A stretch of 64,000 nucleotides of DNA from Planotetraspora mira (GTDB lineage Bacteria; Actinomycetota; Actinomycetes; Streptosporangiales; Streptosporangiaceae), in NCBI RefSeq assembly GCF_016863275.1, contig NZ_BOOO01000013.1, forward strand, positions 62,001 through 126,000, written 5' to 3'. Shown here one piece after another: positions 6,069 through 53,363 of the stretch; positions within the stretch are counted from its first letter, which is position 1; each line of letters opens with the position of its first letter. A model generated the notes under the pieces. It did no database searches and was not told the origin of the DNA. It worked only from the letters and a program-made list of their open reading frames with translations. Both the position numbers and the translations under genes were made by a program.

Positions 6069-8099
6069 ATGTCGGCCGGTTCCACTCTTCCTTCTTCCCT
6101 GTCCCGCGTGCTGTCGCGGCCCGTCGCCCCCGGCGATCTGTCCGGCATCAGGCACGTGGTGTTCGTCATGCAGGAGAACAGGTCGTTCGACCACTACTTC
6201 GGGCACCTGCGCGGCGTGCGCGGGTACGGCGACCGCAACGCGGTGCCGGGCCGGACGCTGAGGCCGGTCTTCGAGCAGGACGGGGTGCTGCCCTTCTCCG
6301 TCCGTGAGGCGGCCAGGCTCGCGGGAGCCGACCCCATGCTGCTCGACTCCCACGACCACAGTTGGCTCGGCACCCACAACGCGTGGGCGATGGGCTGGAA
6401 CGACGCGTGGACGCCCAACAAGGGGCCCTCGTCCCTGTCCTATTACGACCGCGGCGATCTGCCCTTCTATTACGAGCTCGCGGACACCTTCACGATCTGT
6501 GACGCCTACCACAGCTCGGCGCTGACCTCCACGACGCCCAACCGCAACTACCACGTCTCGGGCCACACCGGCTTCGAGCCCGGCACGGGGCAGCGGGCTG
6601 TCGACAACGACGCGTGCGAGGAGGACGGGCACGCCGGATACTCGTGGATCACCGTGCCCGAACTGCTGACCCAGGCCGGGCACTCCTGGCAGGTCTACCA
6701 GGAGTGGGACAACTACCAGTGCAACAACCTGGAGTTCTTCGCCACGTTCAAGACCGTGATGGCCAAGCTCGGCCAGACCAGCATGCACTCCTTCTACCAG
6801 GCGGTCCGCGCGGCCGGCGATCCCACGCCGCTGCTCGCCGAGTTGGAGGAGCGGGTGGCCGGGCTCGACCCCGCCGACCGGGAGCTGTACGACCGGGCGC
6901 TGCGCCGTACCCGGACGGGCGGGCTGGGGGAGTGGTTCTCCGCCGACGTGGCCGCCGGGCGCCTTCCCGCCGTTTCCTACGTGGTGACCTCCCTCGCCGA
7001 CTCCGAACATCCGGAAGGGTCGTCGGCCGTCGAGAGCGGCAAGGTCATCTACCAGGTCCTGGACGCGCTCGCCTCGCATCCCGACGTGTGGGCGAGCACG
7101 GCGGTCTTCATCACCTACGACGAGAACGACGGCTTCTTCGACCACGTCCCGCCGCCCGTGCCGCCTGACGGAACGCCGGGGGAGTTCGTCAACGGACGGC
7201 CCATCGGCCTCGGCATGCGGGTCCCGATGATCGTGGTGTCGCCCTGGAGCGTGGGCGGTCACGTCTGCTCCGAGACGTTCGACCACAGCTCGACCGTGCG
7301 ATTCCTGGAGACCTGGCTGGGCATCAAGGCGCCCGACATCAGCCCGTGGCGCCGCCAGGTCGTGGGTGACCTGACCTCGGCCTTCGACTTCGCCGCCCCT
7401 TCCGTGCCGGTCGTCGCCTCCGGCACGTCGCCGAGCCTCGCCCCCGGTACGTCGCCGAGCCTCGGCGGCGGCACCGCGCCGGCTCGGGAGGAGACCGCCG
7501 CCGGCCGGTGGTACCCCGTGGCGCCCGCCGAGCAGCGGATGCCCGTCCAGGAACCCGGGACCAAGCCCGCGCGGGCCCTGCCGTACCAGCCGGACGCCCA
7601 CGCCAGGGCACGCGGGCGCGCCGTGGAGATCACCATGGCCAACCGCGGTGTGGCGAGCGCCCACCTCGCGCTCTACGGCTACATGGGCGAGCTCGTCCGG
7701 CCGCAGCACTTCGACGTCGTCGACGACCTGCGGGAGGCGGTCTACTTCCCGACCGACTCCTACGACCTCCTCCTGACCGGCCCGAACGGCTTCCGCAGGC
7801 ACTTCCGCGGCGGGCTGGGCGACCGGGTCGAGGTCACGACGGAGATCGATCCCGCCTCGCGGAGCGTGCTCATCGACGTCGTCAACACCGCCGGCTCTCC
7901 CGCCGACGTCAGCGTCACCCCCCTCGCCTACGGCGGGGAGCCGCGGGTCCTGCGCCTGCCCTCCGGAGGCGCGGTCCAAGTCGAGTGGCCGGCCGCGACC
8001 GGGTGGTACGACCTCGCGGTGACCGTCGAGGGAGACGCCGGCTGGCTGCGCCGTCTCATGGGCCACATCGAGAACGGCAGGCCCAGCGTCACCGGCTGA
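6069..8099 (+). CDS. Phospholipase C, phosphocholine-specific type (no visible export signal)
   Basis: 676 residues. The phosphoesterase domain opens with HVVFVMQENRSFDHYFG (29-45), the hallmark of the bacterial PLC/acid phosphatase superfamily. It continues with TPNRNYHVSGHTG, EWDNYQCNN, YVVTSLADSEHPEGSS and FITYDENDGFFDHV. Two bacterial PLC C-terminal beta domains follow from about 500, after an Ala/Pro/Ser-rich linker with two TSPSLAPG-like repeats. The family cleaves phosphatidylcholine or sphingomyelin, usually after Tat export. Here the N-terminus (MSAGSTLPSS...) has neither twin Arg nor a hydrophobic core. ATG 6069 is supported by GGAGGG 10 bases upstream, and no in-frame extension supplies a leader. 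Confidence 0.88.
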   Translation: MSAGSTLPSSLSRVLSRPVAPGDLSGIRHVVFVMQENRSFDHYFGHLRGVRGYGDRNAVPGRTLRPVFEQDGVLPFSVREAARLAGADPMLLDSHDHSWLGTHNAWAMGWNDAWTPNKGPSSLSYYDRGDLPFYYELADTFTICDAYHSSALTSTTPNRNYHVSGHTGFEPGTGQRAVDNDACEEDGHAGYSWITVPELLTQAGHSWQVYQEWDNYQCNNLEFFATFKTVMAKLGQTSMHSFYQAVRAAGDPTPLLAELEERVAGLDPADRELYDRALRRTRTGGLGEWFSADVAAGRLPAVSYVVTSLADSEHPEGSSAVESGKVIYQVLDALASHPDVWASTAVFITYDENDGFFDHVPPPVPPDGTPGEFVNGRPIGLGMRVPMIVVSPWSVGGHVCSETFDHSSTVRFLETWLGIKAPDISPWRRQVVGDLTSAFDFAAPSVPVVASGTSPSLAPGTSPSLGGGTAPAREETAAGRWYPVAPAEQRMPVQEPGTKPARALPYQPDAHARARGRAVEITMANRGVASAHLALYGYMGELVRPQHFDVVDDLREAVYFPTDSYDLLLTGPNGFRRHFRGGLGDRVEVTTEIDPASRSVLIDVVNTAGSPADVSVTPLAYGGEPRVLRLPSGGAVQVEWPAATGWYDLAVTVEGDAGWLRRLMGHIENGRPSVTG

Positions 8100-23182: not shown

Positions 23183-23190
23183 CGGCCGCG

Positions 23191-23359
23191 CATGATCACG
23201 GGCGGTGTCGGCGCAGGTAGGGCGCGGTTTCGCCGAACCTGTGCATGATCACGGCTTGCGTTCGCGCAGGTCGGGCGAGGTTTCACCGAACCTGTGCATG
23301 ATCACGGCCGACGTCCGCGCAGGTCGGGTGTGGTCTCACCGAACCTGTGCATGATCACG
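23191..23359. repeat. 53-bp tandem repeat array, locus A
   Basis: The decamer CATGATCACG occurs at 23191, 23244, 23297 and 23350, spaced exactly 53 bp. Each unit holds a GCGCAGGT(C/A)GGG centre and ends TCACCGAACCTGTG or close to it. Ten to fifteen positions per unit vary. The array fills the space between convergent genes; its last unit supplies the stop codon of the aldolase gene (TCA at 23355-23357 on this strand). Related units make up locus B at 49681-50027. Confidence 0.92.
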
Positions 23360-23993
23360 GCGAAGGGGGGGTGGGGGGTGGGGTGAAGGCTCGGATGATG
23401 ACGTCGGCGAGTTGTTCCTCGGTCAGGACGGTGGGCGTGCCGATGCCGAGGGCGCGGACGTACACCTCGCAGAGCCACTCGAGCAGGCGTGTGGCCTCGA
23501 AGGCCTTCTCCAGGCCGGCTCCGATCGTGACGCCGCCGTGGTTGGCCATCAGCGCCGCCTGCTTGCCCGTGAGCGCCTCCTGGACCTTCGCGGCGAGTTC
23601 GGGCGTGCCGTACGTCGCGTACTCGGCCACGCGGACGCTGCCGCCCAGCAGCAGGGAGTTGTAGTGGATCGGGGGCAACTCCGTCATGGTGGTCGCCACC
23701 ACGGCACCGAAGACCGAATGGGTGTGCACGACCGCGGTCGTCCCCGTCGCGGCGTAGACGGCCAGGTGCATGGGGGTCTCCGAGGACGGAGGCAGGTCGC
23801 CCTCCACCACGGTGCCGTCGAGCCGGATGATCGGGCAGTCCTCGGGGCGCAGACGGTCGAGCGCGACGCCGGAGGGCGTGACCGTCACGAGGTCGCCGTC
23901 CCTGGCGCTGAGGTTGCCCGATGTGCCGATGACCAGGCCGAGCTCCGCGGCCCGCCTGCCGTAGTCGCACAGCTGACGACGAAGCTCCTCCAT
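23355..23993 (-). CDS. Class II aldolase/adducin family protein (fuculose-phosphate aldolase type)
   Basis: 212 residues. Zinc ligands are in place: E72 (SSETPMH), H90 and H92 (VVHTHS) and H152 (MANHGG). GTSGNLSAR (23-31) binds the phosphate. The family cleaves sugar 1-phosphates such as L-fuculose-1-phosphate or L-ribulose-5-phosphate. The C-terminus is a Pro/Thr run whose stop codon comes from the repeat array, so the end may have been reshaped by it. The gene is divergent from ngcE and shares its control region, including a DasR-like site 39 bp from its start. Confidence 0.88.
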   Translation of the reverse strand: MEELRRQLCDYGRRAAELGLVIGTSGNLSARDGDLVTVTPSGVALDRLRPEDCPIIRLDGTVVEGDLPPSSETPMHLAVYAATGTTAVVHTHSVFGAVVATTMTELPPIHYNSLLLGGSVRVAEYATYGTPELAAKVQEALTGKQAALMANHGGVTIGAGLEKAFEATRLLEWLCEVYVRALGIGTPTVLTEEQLADVIIRAFTPPPTPPSP

Positions 23994-30458: not shown

Positions 30459-31112
30459 ACGATCTCTATGGAGCGGGTGGGCAAGCCGAAGCTCCGCGGC
30501 TGGCTGCACGCGGGCGCCGTGCCCGCGACGCTGGTGGGCGGGTTCGTGCTGGTGGCCCTCGGGCCCACGTTGCAGGCCAGGCTGGCCGCGGTGATCTACG
30601 CGATCACATCCGGCCTGCTGTTCGGCGTCTCCGCGACCTATCACCGGGGCAGGCTCTCCCCGGGTGTCACGGAGGTGCTGCGCCGGTTCGACCACGCCAA
30701 CATCTATCTCGTGATCGCGGGCACCTACACCCCCTTCGCGGTGCTGGCCCTGGACGGGATCGCCCGGGTGGCCGTGTTGTCGGTCATCTGGGTGGGCGCG
30801 ACCGTCGGAGTGCTGTTCCGCGTGTTGTGGCTGCGGGCCCCCCGCTGGCTCTACACGGCGCTCTACATCGGGCTGGGCTGGACGGCGATGTTCGTCATGC
30901 CGCAGTTGTTCGCGGGGGCGGGTGTCGCCGCGGGGATCCTGGTCCTCGCCGGCGGCCTCCTCTACTCGGCGGGGGCGGTCGTGTACGGCCTGCGCCGCCC
31001 CGACCCCTCGCCCCGGTGGTTCGGCTTCCACGAGGTCTTCCACGCCTTCACGATCGCCGCCTACGTCGTCCAGTACGTGGCGGTCTCCCTGGTCGTGTAC
31101 GCCGCCGTCTGA
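30453..31112 (+). CDS. Hemolysin III family membrane protein
   Basis: 219 residues with seven predicted helices. HlyIII/PAQR markers are ATYHRGRL in helix 2, FDHANIYLVIAGTYTPF (the His/Asp region) and FHEVFHAFTIAAY with two His near the C-terminus. These His probably bind zinc. The family includes bacterial channel-like proteins and PAQR receptors; the name hemolysin is historical. The start is GTG 30453 or ATG 30468; neither has a strong ribosome-binding site. The GTG lies in the right arm of the long palindrome, so a bound repressor would block both transcription and initiation. Confidence 0.87.
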   Translation: MTTISMERVGKPKLRGWLHAGAVPATLVGGFVLVALGPTLQARLAAVIYAITSGLLFGVSATYHRGRLSPGVTEVLRRFDHANIYLVIAGTYTPFAVLALDGIARVAVLSVIWVGATVGVLFRVLWLRAPRWLYTALYIGLGWTAMFVMPQLFAGAGVAAGILVLAGGLLYSAGAVVYGLRRPDPSPRWFGFHEVFHAFTIAAYVVQYVAVSLVVYAAV

Positions 31113-31120
31113 TCTGCGCC

Positions 31121-31191
31121 CCGTGATCTACGCCCCCGTGATCCACGCCCCGTGATCTACGCCCCGTGATCCATGCCGCCTGATCACGGGG
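31121..31191. repeat. Short tandem repeat ending in a perfect hairpin
   Basis: CGTGATC starts at 31122, 31137, 31151 and 31165, with units of 14-15 bp (CCCCGTGATCTACG type). The last unit pairs with GATCACGGGG: CCCCGTGATC (31162-31171), a 10-base loop, GATCACGGGG (31182-31191). This should act as a terminator after the hemolysin III gene. Confidence 0.8.
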
Positions 31192-36284: not shown

Positions 36285-38075
36285 TCAGTGTGACGGAAAC
36301 AGGCCGATTCTGATCAGGACTGCCGTGAGAACGCCTGTCGGCACATCGCGCGGATCCTGCGAAGGCGGCTCGTCGTTCCCCGGCGACTCTCCGGTCCTGG
36401 GCGGAGCCTCGGTGCCGGGCGTCTGCGGGATGCCTCCCGTCGTGTCCGTCGGCTTCGTGGGCTCGTCGGTTGTGGGCTTGGTGGGCTCCCCGGACGGCTC
36501 GTTCGTGCCTGGGCTTTCCGTGCCTGGGCTTTCCGTACCGGGGCTCTCCGTGCCGGGATCCGTGCCGGGATCCGTGCCGGGATCCGTGCCGGGATCTGTG
36601 CCTGGGTCCGTGCCTGGGTCCGTGCCTGGGTCCGTGCCTGGGTCCGTGCCCGGGTCTGTGCCTGGGTCCGTGCCCGGATCTGTGCCCGGGTCGGCAGGGG
36701 GATTGCCGGGGTTGCCACCCGGCGGGTTCACGGGTGGGTCACCCGGGTCGGCGGGTGGGTTGCCGGGGTTGCCACCCGGTGGGTTCGCAGGCGGGTTCGC
36801 GGGCGGGTTCGCCGGGTTCCCCGGCGGGTCGGCGGGGGGATTGCCCGGCGGGTTCGCGGGTGGGTTGACGCCCGGGTTGCCGGGAGGCTGCGGCACCACT
36901 CCGGGATCGGGGCTCGGCGTCTCCTCGGGCTCGTCTGTGACCGTCTCCTCGGGCGTGACGGGTTCGTCAGTGGTCTCGGTGCCGGCTCCGGGAGCGGCGG
37001 GCGACTCGGCCACCGCGCCCGCCTGAAGTTTCGTCCCGTTGGTGATGGATCCGACCAGCACCGCGCCGCCCGTGGCGACGACGACCGCGCCCGCCAGTGA
37101 CAGGCCGACCTTCATGCCCGTCTTGCTCAGCAGGCTCTTGCCCCTGCCCAGCCTGGTCTCGGCGAGTGACGTGCCGACCTCGGGCGCCGCGTCGGTCAGC
37201 GGGAAGAACGGAAGCAGCAGCCCGGCGAGGACGGCCAGGCGCCGCCGGCCCTTCTCCTCCCATTCCGGGCCGTACGCGTCGTGCGCGACGAACTCGAGCT
37301 CGTTGACGAACGCCTCGGCGTTCTGGGGACGGTCGGCCGCGTGCTTGGCCATGCCGCGCTCGATGAGCCCGCGCAGCGGGGCCGGCACCTCCTCCACCGG
37401 GGGAGGCGTGATCCGGTGCTGACGGGCGAGGGCGGCCATGTTCTGCGCCCGGAAGGGGCGGGTGCCGGTGAGGCACTCGAAGAAGACGACGGTGGCGGCG
37501 TAGACGTCCGTCGCCGGGCTCGCCGGCGCGCCCGACCACTGCTCGGGCGCCATGTACGGAGGCGTGCCGCTCGTGGTCGTGCCCTCTCCGGCGCGTGCCG
37601 CGATGCCGAAGTCGACCAGCTTGCTCGTGCCGTCGGCCTCGATCATGATGTTCTCGGGCTTGTAGTCCCGGTGGACCATGTCGGCGGCGTGTACGGCGGC
37701 CAGCCCGAACAGGGAGCCCTTCAGGACGGCCAGTGCCGCCTCCGGGCCGGTGGGGCCCTGCGACCGGAGCATGACGCGCAGCGAGACGCCGTCGATCAGC
37801 TCCATGACGATGGCGGCGCCCTGTGGCGTCTCCAGGTACTCGTAGAAGCGGGCGGCGTGCGGGCTGGGCGGCATCGTCGCGAGCAGGCGCGCCTCGTGCC
37901 GGAACCTCGCGACGAAGTCGAGGTCGGTCAGGAGCGTGTCGGACAGGTACTTGATCGCTACTAGGATGTCGTTGGCATCGTGTCGTGCGAGCACGACTCG
38001 TCCGGTGGCCCCAGTGCCGAGCTCTCGCATCTCGGTGTAGCCGGGGACGAACCAGGTGCCCGTGTGGCCGTACAT
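36285..38075 (-). CDS. Receptor-like Ser/Thr protein kinase with Pro-Gly-Thr-Asp extracellular tail
   Basis: 596 residues. Kinase motifs are complete: VAIK (K42), HRDYKPEN (H135-N142), DFG (155-157), GTPPYMAPEQ. A transmembrane helix lies near 310-332. The outside part is made of low-complexity repeats: PPANPPG-type, then about a dozen PGTD units and three SPGTE units. There is no PASTA domain. Such tails may cross the wall or carry glycans. It is flanked by a pseudokinase on each side, one (38215-39141) clearly paralogous over the kinase domain. Ligand unknown. Confidence 0.9.
   Translation of the reverse strand: MYGHTGTWFVPGYTEMRELGTGATGRVVLARHDANDILVAIKYLSDTLLTDLDFVARFRHEARLLATMPPSPHAARFYEYLETPQGAAIVMELIDGVSLRVMLRSQGPTGPEAALAVLKGSLFGLAAVHAADMVHRDYKPENIMIEADGTSKLVDFGIAARAGEGTTTSGTPPYMAPEQWSGAPASPATDVYAATVVFFECLTGTRPFRAQNMAALARQHRITPPPVEEVPAPLRGLIERGMAKHAADRPQNAEAFVNELEFVAHDAYGPEWEEKGRRRLAVLAGLLLPFFPLTDAAPEVGTSLAETRLGRGKSLLSKTGMKVGLSLAGAVVVATGGAVLVGSITNGTKLQAGAVAESPAAPGAGTETTDEPVTPEETVTDEPEETPSPDPGVVPQPPGNPGVNPPANPPGNPPADPPGNPANPPANPPANPPGGNPGNPPADPGDPPVNPPGGNPGNPPADPGTDPGTDPGTDPGTDPGTDPGTDPGTDPGTDPGTDPGTDPGTDPGTESPGTESPGTESPGTNEPSGEPTKPTTDEPTKPTDTTGGIPQTPGTEAPPRTGESPGNDEPPSQDPRDVPTGVLTAVLIRIGLFPSH
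36507..36690 (-). repeat. Coding microsatellite: 12- and 15-bp units
   Basis: The DNA for PGTD repeats (12-bp units such as GGGTCCGTGCCT and GGGATCCGTGCC) and for SPGTE repeats (15-bp units) runs head to tail. Copy number probably changes by slippage, altering the length of the kinase outer stalk. Confidence 0.85.
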
Positions 38076-49087: not shown

Positions 49088-49675
49088 ATGAGTCCGCGAA
49101 GCAGTGTGATGCCGATCGTGGCGAGCGGCACCGTGAACATGGCGAAGCTGCTGATCGCCACCATGGCGGTGGCCGGCGCGTACGTGGGGGCACAGGCGAC
49201 CCAGTCCGAGCCCGGCGGTGTCCCGGTGATCTCGTCCGCGGTGCCCACGGCGCCCGCGAAGTCCACCGGGTCCACGGCCGCGGCGTCGGCGGCGTCCACG
49301 ACAGGGGCCTTCGCGGACCGGCCCACCCGAGTGATGACCCTGACCACTCCTGCCGATGAGACGGACGCGGTCCCCAGGCCCGGCACGGTGGAGGTGACCA
49401 TGACGTCCGGAGGCACGGGATGCGAGCGGACCTACCGGGTGCGGACGGTGATCGGCTCCGCCGGCTCCGACACCTCGTACGGCTGGCAGATCCAGCGCTG
49501 GAACTCCGCGACAGGTGAGTGGCAGCCCTACTTCGCCAGCAGGAGCGGTTTCACGGGCGGCCCGCGGGCCGTCGAGTGGCGTCCGAGGATCGGCGGCAAC
49601 CCCGGTCGCTACCGCGTGCGACTCGACGTCGCCTCACGCTCCTACGAGAGTGCGACGTTCCAGATCACCTGCTGA
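49088..49675 (+). CDS. Secreted or membrane-anchored protein of unknown function
   Basis: 195 residues: a hydrophobic segment near 15-35 (signal peptide or anchor), an Ala/Ser/Thr linker, then a C-terminal domain of about 95 residues. The domain reads as an Ig-like beta sandwich (TVEVTMTSGGTGCERTYRVR, YGWQIQRWNSATGEWQPY, GRYRVRLDVASRSYESATFQITC) with two Cys that may bond. ATG 49088 follows GGGGAGG by 4 bases. The stop lies 5 bp before the second repeat array. Function unknown. Confidence 0.75.
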   Translation: MSPRSSVMPIVASGTVNMAKLLIATMAVAGAYVGAQATQSEPGGVPVISSAVPTAPAKSTGSTAAASAASTTGAFADRPTRVMTLTTPADETDAVPRPGTVEVTMTSGGTGCERTYRVRTVIGSAGSDTSYGWQIQRWNSATGEWQPYFASRSGFTGGPRAVEWRPRIGGNPGRYRVRLDVASRSYESATFQITC

Positions 49676-49680
49676 CCGTG

Positions 49681-50027
49681 TGATCACGCCCCACCCTCCC
49701 GCCATGATCACGCCCAAACCCCCGCCGTGATCATGCACACATTCGGCGAAAGGGTCCTTGACCTGCGGATCCCGATTTCGTGATCATGCGCAGATTCGGG
49801 GAATCACCCCACCACCAGGGCACATTCACCGCGTGATCATGCAATGAGCCCGGCCGCTGCATGATCACGGTCGTCATCGGCCGAGGTCGACGGCCCGATC
49901 TCCGAAAGCGTGCATGATCACGCCCACGTTTGGCCAGGTCACTCGGCAAGAGCCCGAATCTGTGCATGATCACGTTCAGGGTTTGGGCACGTCGACAGGC
50001 CCTTCGCCGAACCTGTGCATGATCACG
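49681..50027. repeat. 53-bp repeat array, locus B, with internal inversion
   Basis: CGTGATCATG (minus orientation) starts at 49726, 49779 and 49832, spaced 53 bp. CATGATCACG (plus orientation) starts at 49860, 49913, 49965 and 50018, spaced 53, 52 and 53 bp; earlier partial copies are at 49681 and 49703. The units share CAGGTC in the middle and CCGAA(C/T)(C/G)TGTG before the decamer, as in locus A. The orientation flips between 49841 and 49860, giving a head-to-head inverted pair. The array fills the space between convergent genes; the SARP-type gene stop (50031) follows at once. Confidence 0.92.
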
Positions 50028-50030
50028 GCC

Positions 50031-53000
50031 TCAGGTGCTCAGCGACCGTCGTGCTTCGTCGATCCAGCGGGGCACGCCGACCCGCTCCGCCACCCCGAGC
50101 GCCGTCTCGTAGTGCTCACGGGCGGGCAGGCCGAGCCGTACGGCGAGATCGCCGAGAGTCCTGGCCACCGGCCACAGGGCGACCACGCCGGTTCCCGCCC
50201 CGGCGATGCGGTCGCGGAACGGCACGAGCCTCTCGTAGGCCTCCTTCATCCGGTCGGCGTCGTCGAGCAGCATCCCGGCGAGCGCCCGCCAGATGAGCGC
50301 GAGCTCGTACAGGAAGTCGGTGCGCACCGGCTCCCGTCCGGCCGCGATGACCTGGGCGTCCTTCAGGTGGCCCGCGGACGCGAGCGCCACGGCGTAGGCG
50401 TCGAGCGTCCACTTGGCTCCGCGGTGATGCGCCTCGGCGAGCGGCTCGGCCATCTCCGCGGCGCGTCCGTCGACGAGGTGCAGGCAGAAGGTCGCGATCA
50501 GCGGCAGGTCCTGGCGGCCCTCCAGCATGCCCGCCCGGGCCGTCAGCCTGGCCGCGTTGCGGTAGGCCCGCTCGGCTTCCGCGTAGTCGCCGGTGATCAT
50601 CAGGCGCTGCCCGGCGTACCAGGCGCCGACGGCGGCCGGGGCCGGCAGGTCGTACTGGCGTCCGAGTGACTCGGCCTCCGCCAGGTGTCCGTCGGCCTCG
50701 GCGAAGTCGCCGCGCGCCGCCGCGCATTCGAGCAGCACGAGGTGGGCCAGCGCCCGGACGGCGATCTGTCCTGATTCCGCGCCGACCCTGAGCAGTTCGC
50801 GGCCGATGGTCTCCCGCTCGTCGACCTGCGTCATCGTGTAGGACTGGCGCAGCCTGCCGCTGAGCGCCACCGCCAGCAGGGCCGGGTCGCCGCTCGAGCG
50901 GGCCAGCTCCTCCGCCTCCAGCGACGCCTGGTATCCCCGCTGGGTGGCGGAGCCCTCCAGTTCGAGCGCCAGCGTGGCCAGCAGGCTCGCCCGCAGCGAC
51001 TGCTCGCCCGGAGGCAACTCGACCAGGGCCTTCTCGGTGACGTCGACGATCTCCCAGGCGGTCCTGGTGAAGTCGCGGGCGATCCCCTTGTGCGGGACCG
51101 CGAGGGCCGCCGCGATCCGCGCCGTCAACTCCATGTCGCCGAGCGGAAGGGCGACGTTCATGGCCTCTCGCCGCAGGCCGCGCGCGGCGGTCATGTCACC
51201 GCCCAGGGCCAGCGCCCTGATGTGCCTGAGCTGAAGCTCCAGCCGCTCCCTGACGGGCCCGTGCCCCCCGTGGGCGCGGTCGAGGGCGGTGACGGCCTGC
51301 TGCCACAACGACGCCGCCTCGCGGTGCGCGAAACGACGCTCGGCCTGTTCGGCGGCGAGACCGGCGTACCAGCCGGCCTTCGCCGCGCTGTCCGCGGTGC
51401 CCGCGGCGTCGTAGTGGTGGGCCATCGCCGCCACGTCGCCCGGATTGCGCCGCTCGATCACGGACGCCACGGCCGCGTGCAGCCGGGACCGGCGCAACCG
51501 CGAGGCGTCGGAGTACAGGGTGTCCCTGACCAGGTCGTGGTCGAAGCGGAGCAGGCCGGTGCCCGGCTCGGTGACGAGCCCGGCGAGCAGCGCGGCCTCG
51601 ACGGCGTCCACCACCGCGTCCTCGTCGCCCGAGACGTCGACCAGCACGTCGACGTCGACGTCGCGCCCGATCACCGCCGCCTGGAGCAGCACCTGCTGCG
51701 CCCGCTCGGGCAGCCGCGCGATCCTCCTGCGCAGGACGTCGCGGACCCCGGACGGCACCTCGGAGATGTCGGCCTCGGCCTCGAACAGGCGGACCGTCTC
51801 CTTGACGAAGAAGGGGTTGCCGCCGGCCCGCTCGACGATCGTGGTGACGACCTCGTCGTCCACGTCGTGCACACAGGTCGCCCTGACCAGCTCGGCCACC
51901 GACGCGTCGTCGAGCCCGTCGAGGCCCACCCGCACGGGACCGAGCCTGGCCAGCGCCGCGAGCACGTCCTGCTGCTGGTCGTTCAGCTCGCCGTCACGGC
52001 AGGTCACGACCATTAGCACCCGGCTGGCGGCCAGCAGGCTGGGCAGCGCGCGCAGCAGCGCGAGCGTCTGGTCGTCGGCCCAGTGCAGGTCCTCCAGGAC
52101 GATCAGCAGCGGGGCCTCGCGCGCGACCGCCGACAGGTAGCCGCCGACCGCCCGGTGCAGGCGGAATCCGCCCGACGCCTCGTCGTCTCCCGTGTCCGGC
52201 GCCGCGTCGTCGAGCAGGGGCGCCAGTAGGGCGGCGTACTCGCCCGCACCGCGCCGTGCGACCAGGGCCCGCAGCACCTCGACCCACGCCCAGCCGGGAG
52301 GCGTCGCGCTGCTGTCCGGGCAGCCGCCGCCGGCCGCGATCCAGCCGCCGTCTTCCAGCAGGCCGGACAACTGGCGCACCAGCGTCGTCTTGCCCGCGCC
52401 CGGGTCTCCGTTGACGACGGCGACCGTGAACCGGCCCGCCCCGGCCCGCGGCGCCGCGGCCCGCAACATGTCCAGTTCGCCGTCACGGCCCACGAAGGGC
52501 TCGGGCTCCAACGGAGGCAGATCCACCGCCTCGAACGACCGGGGCGGCCAGGTCGCGCCGATCTCCACGGTCCGGCGGGCCGCCGGGGCGGCGAGGTCGA
52601 GTGCGGGGTCCTGCGACAGGATGCCGGACTCCAGCTTCCGCAACGCCGGGCCCGGGTCGATGCCGAGCTCGTCGGACAGGATCGTGCGGGCCTTGCGGAT
52701 CGCGGCGAGCGCGTCTCCCTGTCGTCCGCACCGGTAGAGCCCGAGCGCGAGCAGCCGCCAGCCCTCCTCGCGCAGGGCGTGCTCGGTGGTCATCGCCTCG
52801 AGGTCGGGCACGGTCTCGGCGTGCAGGCCCATCCGCAGCCCGGCGTCGGCGTGCCGTTCGCGGGCCACGAGCCGGAGCTCGCTCAGCCTGGCCACCTCCG
52901 CCTCGGCCCACGACTGGTCGGCGAAGCCGGAATACGGCGTGCCCTGCCACAGCCCGAGGGCGGACCCGAGCCTGGCCCTGGCCGAGGCGGGGTCGTCCTC

Positions 53001-53363
53001 GAGCCACTCCCCGGCCGAGCGGACGGTCGCCTCGAAGCGCAGCGCGTCGACCTGTTCGGCCGCGGTGCGCAGGGCGTAGCCGGAGGCCACCGTCACCAGC
53101 AGGCGGTTCGGCCCGCCGCGCGGGCGGTTCGGCTCGAGCACGCGGCGCAGCCGCGAGATGTAGACCTGCAGCCCCGACTGCGCTCCCTTGGCGGCGTCGT
53201 CGTCCCACAGGTCGAACAGCAGCGTGTCCACGGGGACGACCTGCCCCCGTGCGACGAGCAGGCGGGCGAGGACGGCACGCTGCCGAAGGCCGCCGAGGTC
53301 GATGAGGCCGGCGTCGCCGTCGGCCTCCACCGGGCCGAGGACCCGGAACGTGATCGGGCTCAT
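50031..53363 (-). CDS. AfsR/SARP-type regulator with BTAD and ATPase domains
   Basis: 1110 residues. The OmpR-type DNA-binding domain (about 1-95: FRVLGPVEADGDAG...LRQRAVLARLLV), the BTAD helices (about 95-245: RFEATVRSAGEWL..., LYRCGRQGDALAAIRKAR) and an AAA/STAND ATPase (Walker A GDPGAGKTT with K325, Walker B LLIVLEDLHWADD) are followed by about 550 residues of helical TPR-like repeats. These proteins activate secondary metabolite or developmental genes and often respond to ATP/ADP and phosphorylation by AfsK-like kinases. The C-terminal repeats should receive the signal. ATG 53363 begins directly at the DNA-binding domain. No biosynthetic cluster is adjacent. Confidence 0.92.
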   Translation of the reverse strand: MSPITFRVLGPVEADGDAGLIDLGGLRQRAVLARLLVARGQVVPVDTLLFDLWDDDAAKGAQSGLQVYISRLRRVLEPNRPRGGPNRLLVTVASGYALRTAAEQVDALRFEATVRSAGEWLEDDPASARARLGSALGLWQGTPYSGFADQSWAEAEVARLSELRLVARERHADAGLRMGLHAETVPDLEAMTTEHALREEGWRLLALGLYRCGRQGDALAAIRKARTILSDELGIDPGPALRKLESGILSQDPALDLAAPAARRTVEIGATWPPRSFEAVDLPPLEPEPFVGRDGELDMLRAAAPRAGAGRFTVAVVNGDPGAGKTTLVRQLSGLLEDGGWIAAGGGCPDSSATPPGWAWVEVLRALVARRGAGEYAALLAPLLDDAAPDTGDDEASGGFRLHRAVGGYLSAVAREAPLLIVLEDLHWADDQTLALLRALPSLLAASRVLMVVTCRDGELNDQQQDVLAALARLGPVRVGLDGLDDASVAELVRATCVHDVDDEVVTTIVERAGGNPFFVKETVRLFEAEADISEVPSGVRDVLRRRIARLPERAQQVLLQAAVIGRDVDVDVLVDVSGDEDAVVDAVEAALLAGLVTEPGTGLLRFDHDLVRDTLYSDASRLRRSRLHAAVASVIERRNPGDVAAMAHHYDAAGTADSAAKAGWYAGLAAEQAERRFAHREAASLWQQAVTALDRAHGGHGPVRERLELQLRHIRALALGGDMTAARGLRREAMNVALPLGDMELTARIAAALAVPHKGIARDFTRTAWEIVDVTEKALVELPPGEQSLRASLLATLALELEGSATQRGYQASLEAEELARSSGDPALLAVALSGRLRQSYTMTQVDERETIGRELLRVGAESGQIAVRALAHLVLLECAAARGDFAEADGHLAEAESLGRQYDLPAPAAVGAWYAGQRLMITGDYAEAERAYRNAARLTARAGMLEGRQDLPLIATFCLHLVDGRAAEMAEPLAEAHHRGAKWTLDAYAVALASAGHLKDAQVIAAGREPVRTDFLYELALIWRALAGMLLDDADRMKEAYERLVPFRDRIAGAGTGVVALWPVARTLGDLAVRLGLPAREHYETALGVAERVGVPRWIDEARRSLST

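Follow-up and report, generated by a model that had tools for sequence, protein, structure and literature searches.

Phased arrays of a 53-bp repeat at gene ends in Planotetraspora: candidate sites of a directional DNA-binding protein

Between two convergent genes of Planotetraspora mira, a short motif is present seven times, in two blocks of opposite orientation, which raises the question of what such an array does at the ends of transcription units. The array lies in a window of 64,000 nt, the whole stretch of DNA that was analysed. A sequence-only reading of this window had described seven decamers spaced by 52-53 bp and had assigned them to the same family as a second array, locus A. By direct reading, all seven were confirmed at 49726-50027, exactly where they had first been described and with the same spacing. 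Locus A, with four more sites at 23189-23359, displays the same core at 53-bp steps and belongs to the same repeat family. The features of the two loci are:

49109..49675, plus strand: left gene (gene call and ORF list), ending 50 bp short of the first full unit
49681..49723, no strand assigned: degenerate TGATCACGCCC pair, 24 bp apart, occupying most of the left gap
49726..49737, plus strand: core site CGTGATCATGCA, left block, outermost
49779..49790, plus strand: core site CGTGATCATGCG, one mismatch, left block
49832..49843, plus strand: core site, left block, innermost
49844..49857, no strand assigned: 14-bp centre separating the opposed blocks, start-to-start distance 26
49858..49869, minus strand: core site, right block, innermost
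49911..49922, minus strand: core site, right block
49963..49974, minus strand: core site, right block, 52-bp step
50016..50027, minus strand: core site, right block, outermost, separated from the right gene's stop by 3 bp
50031..53363 (ORF to 53459), minus strand: right gene converging on the array (gene call and ORF list)
23189..23359, minus strand: locus A, four units in a single orientation between convergent genes

On the plus strand, CGTGATCATGCA is read at 49726, 49779 (with G as final base) and 49832, and TGCATGATCACG, which corresponds to CGTGATCATGCA on the minus strand, at 49858, 49911, 49963 and 50016. The steps along the array are 53 and 53 bp, then 26 bp from block to block, followed by 53, 52 and 53 bp. 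The sites of locus A start at 23189 (one mismatch), 23242, 23295 and 23348, the final one overlapping the stop codon of the right-hand gene (23355-23993). Both arrays had been said to touch stop codons. Closeness was correct, and the right end of the window array is found 3 bp from a stop, but its left end is located 50 bp past the stop of the left gene and makes no contact. In the genomes G004 and G003, an extra outer unit is present near the place of the degenerate TGATCACGCCC pair. An Rfam search of the window yielded a tRNA as the sole match at gathering score, and the arrays matched no Rfam family. Other repeats are also contained in the window. Tandem 14-bp repeats at 31110-31185, TGATCTACGCCCCG and TGATCCACGCCCCG, resemble the degenerate pair and may be a related short-period form of the array family; at 36504-36692, TCCGTGCCTGGG (about 12 copies) and CGTGCCTGGGCTTTC form repeats with a length of 12-15 bases.

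The core is not confined to the window. In the whole genome (G000; 9.03 Mb, 100 contigs), CGTGATCATGCA was detected as an exact match 684 times, 336 on the plus and 348 on the minus strand. About one copy is expected by chance under a first-order Markov model, and a reversed 12-mer used as control had no match in this genome. The array family is therefore real and far above chance. Five genomes of the genus Planotetraspora, which belongs to the actinomycete family Streptosporangiaceae, contain between 242 and 940 exact copies. In 1.57 Mb of G000 that were read, 151 of 157 exact copies are part of 53-bp arrays. For the logo and for cluster, placement, centre, folding and hairpin counts, these 1.57 Mb were pooled with 80 loci of 8 kb, which were selected for holding arrays from at least 103 Planotetraspora stretches, 21 of the 80 coming from Planotetraspora sp. 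A-T 1434.

The pooled set revealed a uniform architecture. Steps within blocks are exactly 53 bp, or about five helical turns, in 502 of 554 cases, and 63, 78 and 44 of the 206 blocks consist of three, four and five units, respectively. The logo of 477 distinct units reads CGTGATCATGCA-CAnnTTCG-n13-YGACCTGC-n4-AC. Outside the outermost core there is a leader with about half C over 20 nt, and inward of the innermost core conservation ends abruptly. The commonest start-to-start distance between opposed blocks is 25 bp, one less than at the window locus. The flip between two blocks described there is present, but not peculiar to that locus: 66 of 135 clusters show a sense block followed by an antisense block, one has the reverse order, and 68 have a single orientation, some of which may be cut by the ends of the 8-kb loci. 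Clusters with both orientations accordingly show the plus-then-minus order, with blocks facing each other, in 66 of 67 cases. Two observations concern individual arrays. Three exact sites at C6:50279-50393 of G000 lie within a called gene at 51-bp steps, so that the reading frame is preserved, unlike with the intergenic 53-bp steps. A second palindrome, around GCCGTACGGC, accompanies the inner part of several arrays, within it or adjacent to it (C1:278949-279535, C13:230049 and C13:23327 of G000, and near position 7052 of locus L146).

Opposed blocks could be significant at the level of RNA, with the transcript folding into a long hairpin by which messages arriving from either side are terminated or stabilised. 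Transcripts of two-block arrays indeed fold far more stably than shuffled sequences (median z -12, 14 sampled), but any inverted repeat would give this. Arrays with one block are mildly structured, with median z values of -2.0 for the sense and -0.9 for the antisense strand (n=56 each). Similarity between mirror-placed units exceeds that between the remaining sense-antisense pairs within a locus, with 0.46, 0.43, 0.44 and 0.38 versus 0.34, 0.34, 0.36 and 0.30 in four sets, the first figure of each series referring to G000; equal-index units at other loci reach 0.37, 0.33, 0.38 and 0.32, below the mirror units. Selection for pairing of mirror units was rejected as the cause of this real similarity, since changes between species do not compensate: 26 of 47 mirror pairs compared with 57 of 105 non-mirror pairs (six loci, P=1.0), or 39 of 69 and 84 of 163 when the locus C1:60116 is included. 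Set beside an intrinsic terminator, defined by a G+C-rich hairpin and a subsequent U run, two-block loci show strong folding and no compensatory change. A stem inside the unit, between CAGGTTCGG and YGACCTG, was dismissed as well; the consensus is complementary, but the observed pairing equals that of shuffled sequences. The central hairpin was given up as a working part, its stem extension being marginal (outward 0.404 versus 0.349+-0.025, inward 0.77 versus 0.40+-0.13, 30 loci). In genus g62 (genome G107), the core makes short, mostly near-perfect hairpins at most 45 bp from a stop in the seven places read, as would suit a function in RNA. On the other side, 68 of 135 clusters, a number including some possibly cut by locus ends, have no opposed block to pair with. 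The sequence-only reading had proposed that opposed units are able to pair; as a working RNA stem this found little support, also because the plus-then-minus order is unnecessary for a hairpin. We regard an RNA-level element as rather improbable. The reverse order was seen once in 67 clusters although a hairpin would tolerate it, and no covariation was detected between pairing positions within the unit among the 477 distinct units. Both observations argue for double-stranded DNA and suggest that the core is a putative directional protein site.

Conservation in the genus is in agreement with a special status of the core. Fifteen clusters of G000 could be aligned with G003, where 14 retain the array and C1:60116 is without any site; 73 of 91 units are in place. 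At the 14 loci where G003 keeps the array (C1:60116 was left out, and so was G004, whose alignments include a match to a paralogous array), core positions differ in 37 of 876 cases (4.2%), the sub-motifs TTCG and YGACCTG in 168 of 849 (20%), and the remaining positions in 730 of 2024 (36%). Where spacers diverge by less than 25%, at five loci, the corresponding numbers are 6 of 204 for the core and 82 of 488 for the rest. The third, weak sub-motif (AC at 45-46, 48) is not conserved relative to G003, differing in 85 of 227 cases in an alignment of 81 units that includes C1:60116. Spacer divergence amounts to 37-47% at nine of the 14 loci, which may reflect neutral change, turnover or copying from other loci. 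By these alignments, core positions resist substitution, and evolution guards the 12-mer.

A different situation was encountered in G002. G004 and G003 both have the window array; in G002 it is missing, and the same two flanking genes stand closer together. G002 contains 165 paired sites, about a quarter of the 661 in G000. At eight loci covered on both sides, 12 sites were counted in G002 versus 44 in G000, while G003 has 79 versus 93 at 15 loci. Units are retained in 13 of 46 cases in G002 and 73 of 91 in G003 (P=5e-9), and both genomes are equidistant from G000 in a flanking gene (93%). As far as the alignments tell, the congener G002 has lost most of the units examined. Replacement of lost arrays by hairpins in G002 was considered and dropped, because the strongest of these hairpins is already present in G000; strong hairpins are found in three of eight such junctions, compared with 13% of random windows and 49% of array-free convergent junctions. 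In P. thailandica, which is more distant, the array is on the same side at three of five flanks examined, and within the genus the position is stable at 10 of 12 flanks.

Relatives of the arrays were searched in 341 genomes of the family with the looser pattern TGATCATGCA-n4-TTC. Among the matches listed, it is frequent only in Planotetraspora and in g73 (549 copies), g64 (107 and 149 in two of three genomes), g62 (38 in one of two genomes), g65 (18) and one g79 genome (10); other family genomes have zero to four copies each. Most lone matches, again among those listed, are a single conserved TGATCATGCAGGACTTC, at about one copy per genome, which is found far beyond the array-bearing genera and is perhaps coding. 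Outside the family, four further genomes contain no copy of the looser pattern, and 16 genomes from other families within the order and class have zero to two copies each of the exact 12-mer. One exact two-unit pattern had no match in viral contigs. Both g73 and, with few copies, g79 share the 53-bp unit, opposed pairs occur in g64 and g62, and in g65 steps are 41-42 bp. Such steps, about four helical turns, were seen together with a near-palindromic centre in G070 (L240, 5388-5492; L241, 7651-7828). Within this comparison, the core is fixed and the flank varies by genus in the manner of dialects. A fixed core with dialect flanks would also be expected of a DNA uptake sequence (DUS) of a competent actinomycete with genus dialects, and passages of PMC3630211 describe inverted DUS pairs at terminators as well. 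That 151 of 157 exact copies are organised in 53-bp arrays, at a copy number low for 9 Mb, speaks against uptake, which appears very improbable to us.

To locate the arrays relative to genes, a simple purpose-made gene caller was applied, on which all junction classes and gene positions rest. The sequence-only reading placed both arrays exactly between convergent genes, which is true of the two window loci, and convergent junctions are enriched in the 1.57 Mb of G000, but they are not the exclusive location. Arrays occupy 12 of the 247 convergent junctions, 20 of the 897 co-directional ones and 3 of the 245 divergent ones (convergent versus all others, P=0.02). A mere 10 of 217 sites are within called genes, so that the observation by which the sequence-only reading would have been refuted, copies equally frequent in genes and divergent promoters, was not made. 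In the pooled set, which is biased to array loci, the numbers are 48 of 357, 56 of 1209 and 15 of 360; here, 119 of 135 clusters could be placed, six overlapped a called gene and ten were without neighbour. Of 117 outer ends facing a stop, 26 use the TGA in the core itself as stop codon, and at most of the remaining ones the stop lies no more than about 40 nt from the start of the array. With a start codon on the leader side, the pooled set usually shows a wider gap, as if promoters were avoided. In single-orientation arrays, the leader is directed toward a stop in 40 of 61 cases versus a background of 40% (P=7e-5). In co-directional junctions, these arrays show no difference between sense (18) and antisense (13) orientation (P=0.47), and a simple rule of a 3' UTR terminator consequently fails. 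Perfect hairpins were counted in 7 of 50 cases beside arrays versus 38 of 179, no significant deficit (P=0.32), and the arrays therefore do not clearly substitute for ordinary terminators.

Enrichment at convergent junctions and helical phasing would also be accounted for by chromosome architecture, the arrays being candidate sites where a nucleoid protein, gyrase or an SMC-loading factor would act to relieve or delimit the supercoils of converging genes. BIMEs are bound by gyrase. A role in supercoiling has been hypothesised for REPs, according to PMC3733652. Strict polarity is unexpected for a gyrase site, though, and about 5% of convergent junctions (12 of 247) carry arrays, few for such a function. 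Sites of this kind appear improbable to us.

The elements themselves appear to have been copied. The element of the window and one at C1:98.6 kb of G000 are 85.5% identical over 304 bp, a match comprising the entire window element and all but the outermost unit, at least three quarters, of the C1 element and halting at the element ends, with the flanks excluded. A further pair shows 74% identity over 507 bp. The C1 element shares 85.2% identity over 304 bp with the G003 counterpart of the window element and is less similar, 76.8% over 177 bp, to the G003 element at its own position, indicating that large parts of elements were copied between places. On the basis of these alignments, at least one element is a copy from another locus, and we infer that arrays may spread or convert between loci.

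Accordingly, a non-autonomous REP/BIME-like element could simply be multiplying, tolerated behind stops as the least harmful place, with the core as target of a putative enzyme. The placement of the arrays matches that of REPs at 3' ends, the end of the element supplying the stop: in PMC3733652, the distance of most conv-REPs to both 3' ends is less than 20 bp, and a stop codon is often provided by a REP terminus. Besides the copied elements, the comparison with g73 is in favour of such an origin, since array positions are not common to g73 and Planotetraspora: none was detected at the counterparts of seven flanking genes with a good match in G000 (7 of 87 flank genes were usable, compared against 1.57 Mb of G000), and the genes flanking one of these g73 junctions are not adjacent in G000. 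Matches to Y1/RAYT (PF01797), on the other hand, are absent from G000, G002, G003, G004, G078, G108, G069, G070 and G163, and RAYT-driven mobility was rejected for G000; the domain is present in G001, G107 and some array-free genomes, six of 18 in total. CGTC REPs are likewise without a dedicated transposase according to PMC3733652. Among 65 two-block loci, target duplications of 2-10 bp exceed expectation by no more than one locus at any length, and the flanks of candidate empty sites are highly diverged, obscuring any insertion point. The leaders were also tested as arms of a terminator invaded by the element and rejected, their complementarity being no better than that of shuffles. Moreover, positions are fairly stable in the genus (14 of 15 loci, 10 of 12 flanks), and cores are conserved in place. 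REP-like spread explains the placement equally well, but neither the 53-bp phase nor the kept positions, and we consider it somewhat unlikely as the explanation.

The reading we prefer, tentatively and at less than an even chance, is that each locus is a phased array of sites for a putative sequence-specific DNA-binding protein at the ends of transcription units, the filled array constituting a polar barrier or insulator. The protein would bind the 53-bp sites in phase, the filled array would halt RNA polymerase arriving from the leader side, and two opposed blocks would shield both genes of a convergent pair. We favour this protein-array reading because of the 684 exact cores compared with none for the control and the 502 of 554 steps of 53 bp; because of the plus-then-minus order in 66 of 67 clusters, the lowest divergence in the core and the missing covariation within units; because the TGA of the core is used as stop at 26 of 117 ends and 40 of 61 single-orientation arrays have a stop on the leader side; and because 73 of 91 units are kept in G003 and the 53-bp unit recurs in g73 and g79. 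The anatomy agrees with a phased, polar protein array where transcription units end; within this reading, the arrays would probably serve as a polar transcription barrier. Several results weigh against a barrier: the parity of sense and antisense arrays in co-directional junctions, the small share of convergent junctions (about 5%) that carry an array, the location of 15 of 119 placed clusters in divergent junctions, hairpins not significantly rarer beside arrays, and an unconserved AC sub-motif. In addition, G002 lives with most units lost, and G003 without one of 15 arrays. The more specific proposal of a class of polar barriers with a dedicated protein, in which opposed pairs would insulate converging genes, units would spread and lodge behind stops, and G002 would represent a natural loss, seems doubtful at present. 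Transcription ending, supercoil relief and nucleoid binding, the shared roles suggested originally for both arrays, are indistinguishable from sequence alone. A spreading element may have been put to use, in which case REP-like spread and function would both be true. For a distinction, a natural comparison is at hand, with one congener that has lost most units, four keeping hundreds, and dialects in other genera.

Among known systems, mycobacterial MIRU repeats are similar to the arrays in being actinobacterial and intergenic with a unit near 53 bp. Their consensus is different, and we know of no opposed blocks in MIRU. No bacterial repeat family combining a near-invariant core, fixed helical phase and fixed polarity at gene ends is known to us, and no earlier description of the 53-bp family was found in titles and abstract openings or in passages of RepRanger (PMC12306157). 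As in the REP/BIME families GTAG and CGTC, there are hundreds of dispersed copies, often opposed, between convergent and co-directional genes and adjoining 3' ends, as far as the passages of PMC3733652 describe them. In contrast to REPs, which are palindromes of 20-40 bp, the unit is a 53-bp direct repeat, its consensus (477 units, inspected by eye) has no fixed GTAG or CGTC tag, and the arrays have a fixed 53-bp phase and block polarity in a genome, G000, without Y1/RAYT. By the tests made, the 53-bp arrays are dispersed bacterial gene-end repeats outside the REP families. With the DUS of Neisseriaceae they share a short conserved core, dialect flanks and inverted pairs at gene ends, but DUS are scattered and commonly intragenic in the passages of PMC3630211, whereas here 53-bp arrays are formed and 10 of 217 sites are in called genes. 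The two opposed arms of short tandem repeats are reminiscent of eukaryotic foldback elements, which consist of such arms, and so is the copying in large pieces, but the arrays lie behind stop codons and are without target duplication or known enzyme. If they are repeats only, actinomycetes would have a family resembling REPs, with no REP transposase in the G000 genome. Repeated polar protein sites behind a transcription unit are realised in the eukaryotic Sal-box/TTF-I terminator arrays of rDNA, a functional analogy with no relation in sequence, by which termination at the 53-bp arrays may be envisaged. If the arrays are polar barriers, they would terminate or insulate transcription in a way that differs from both hairpins and Rho.
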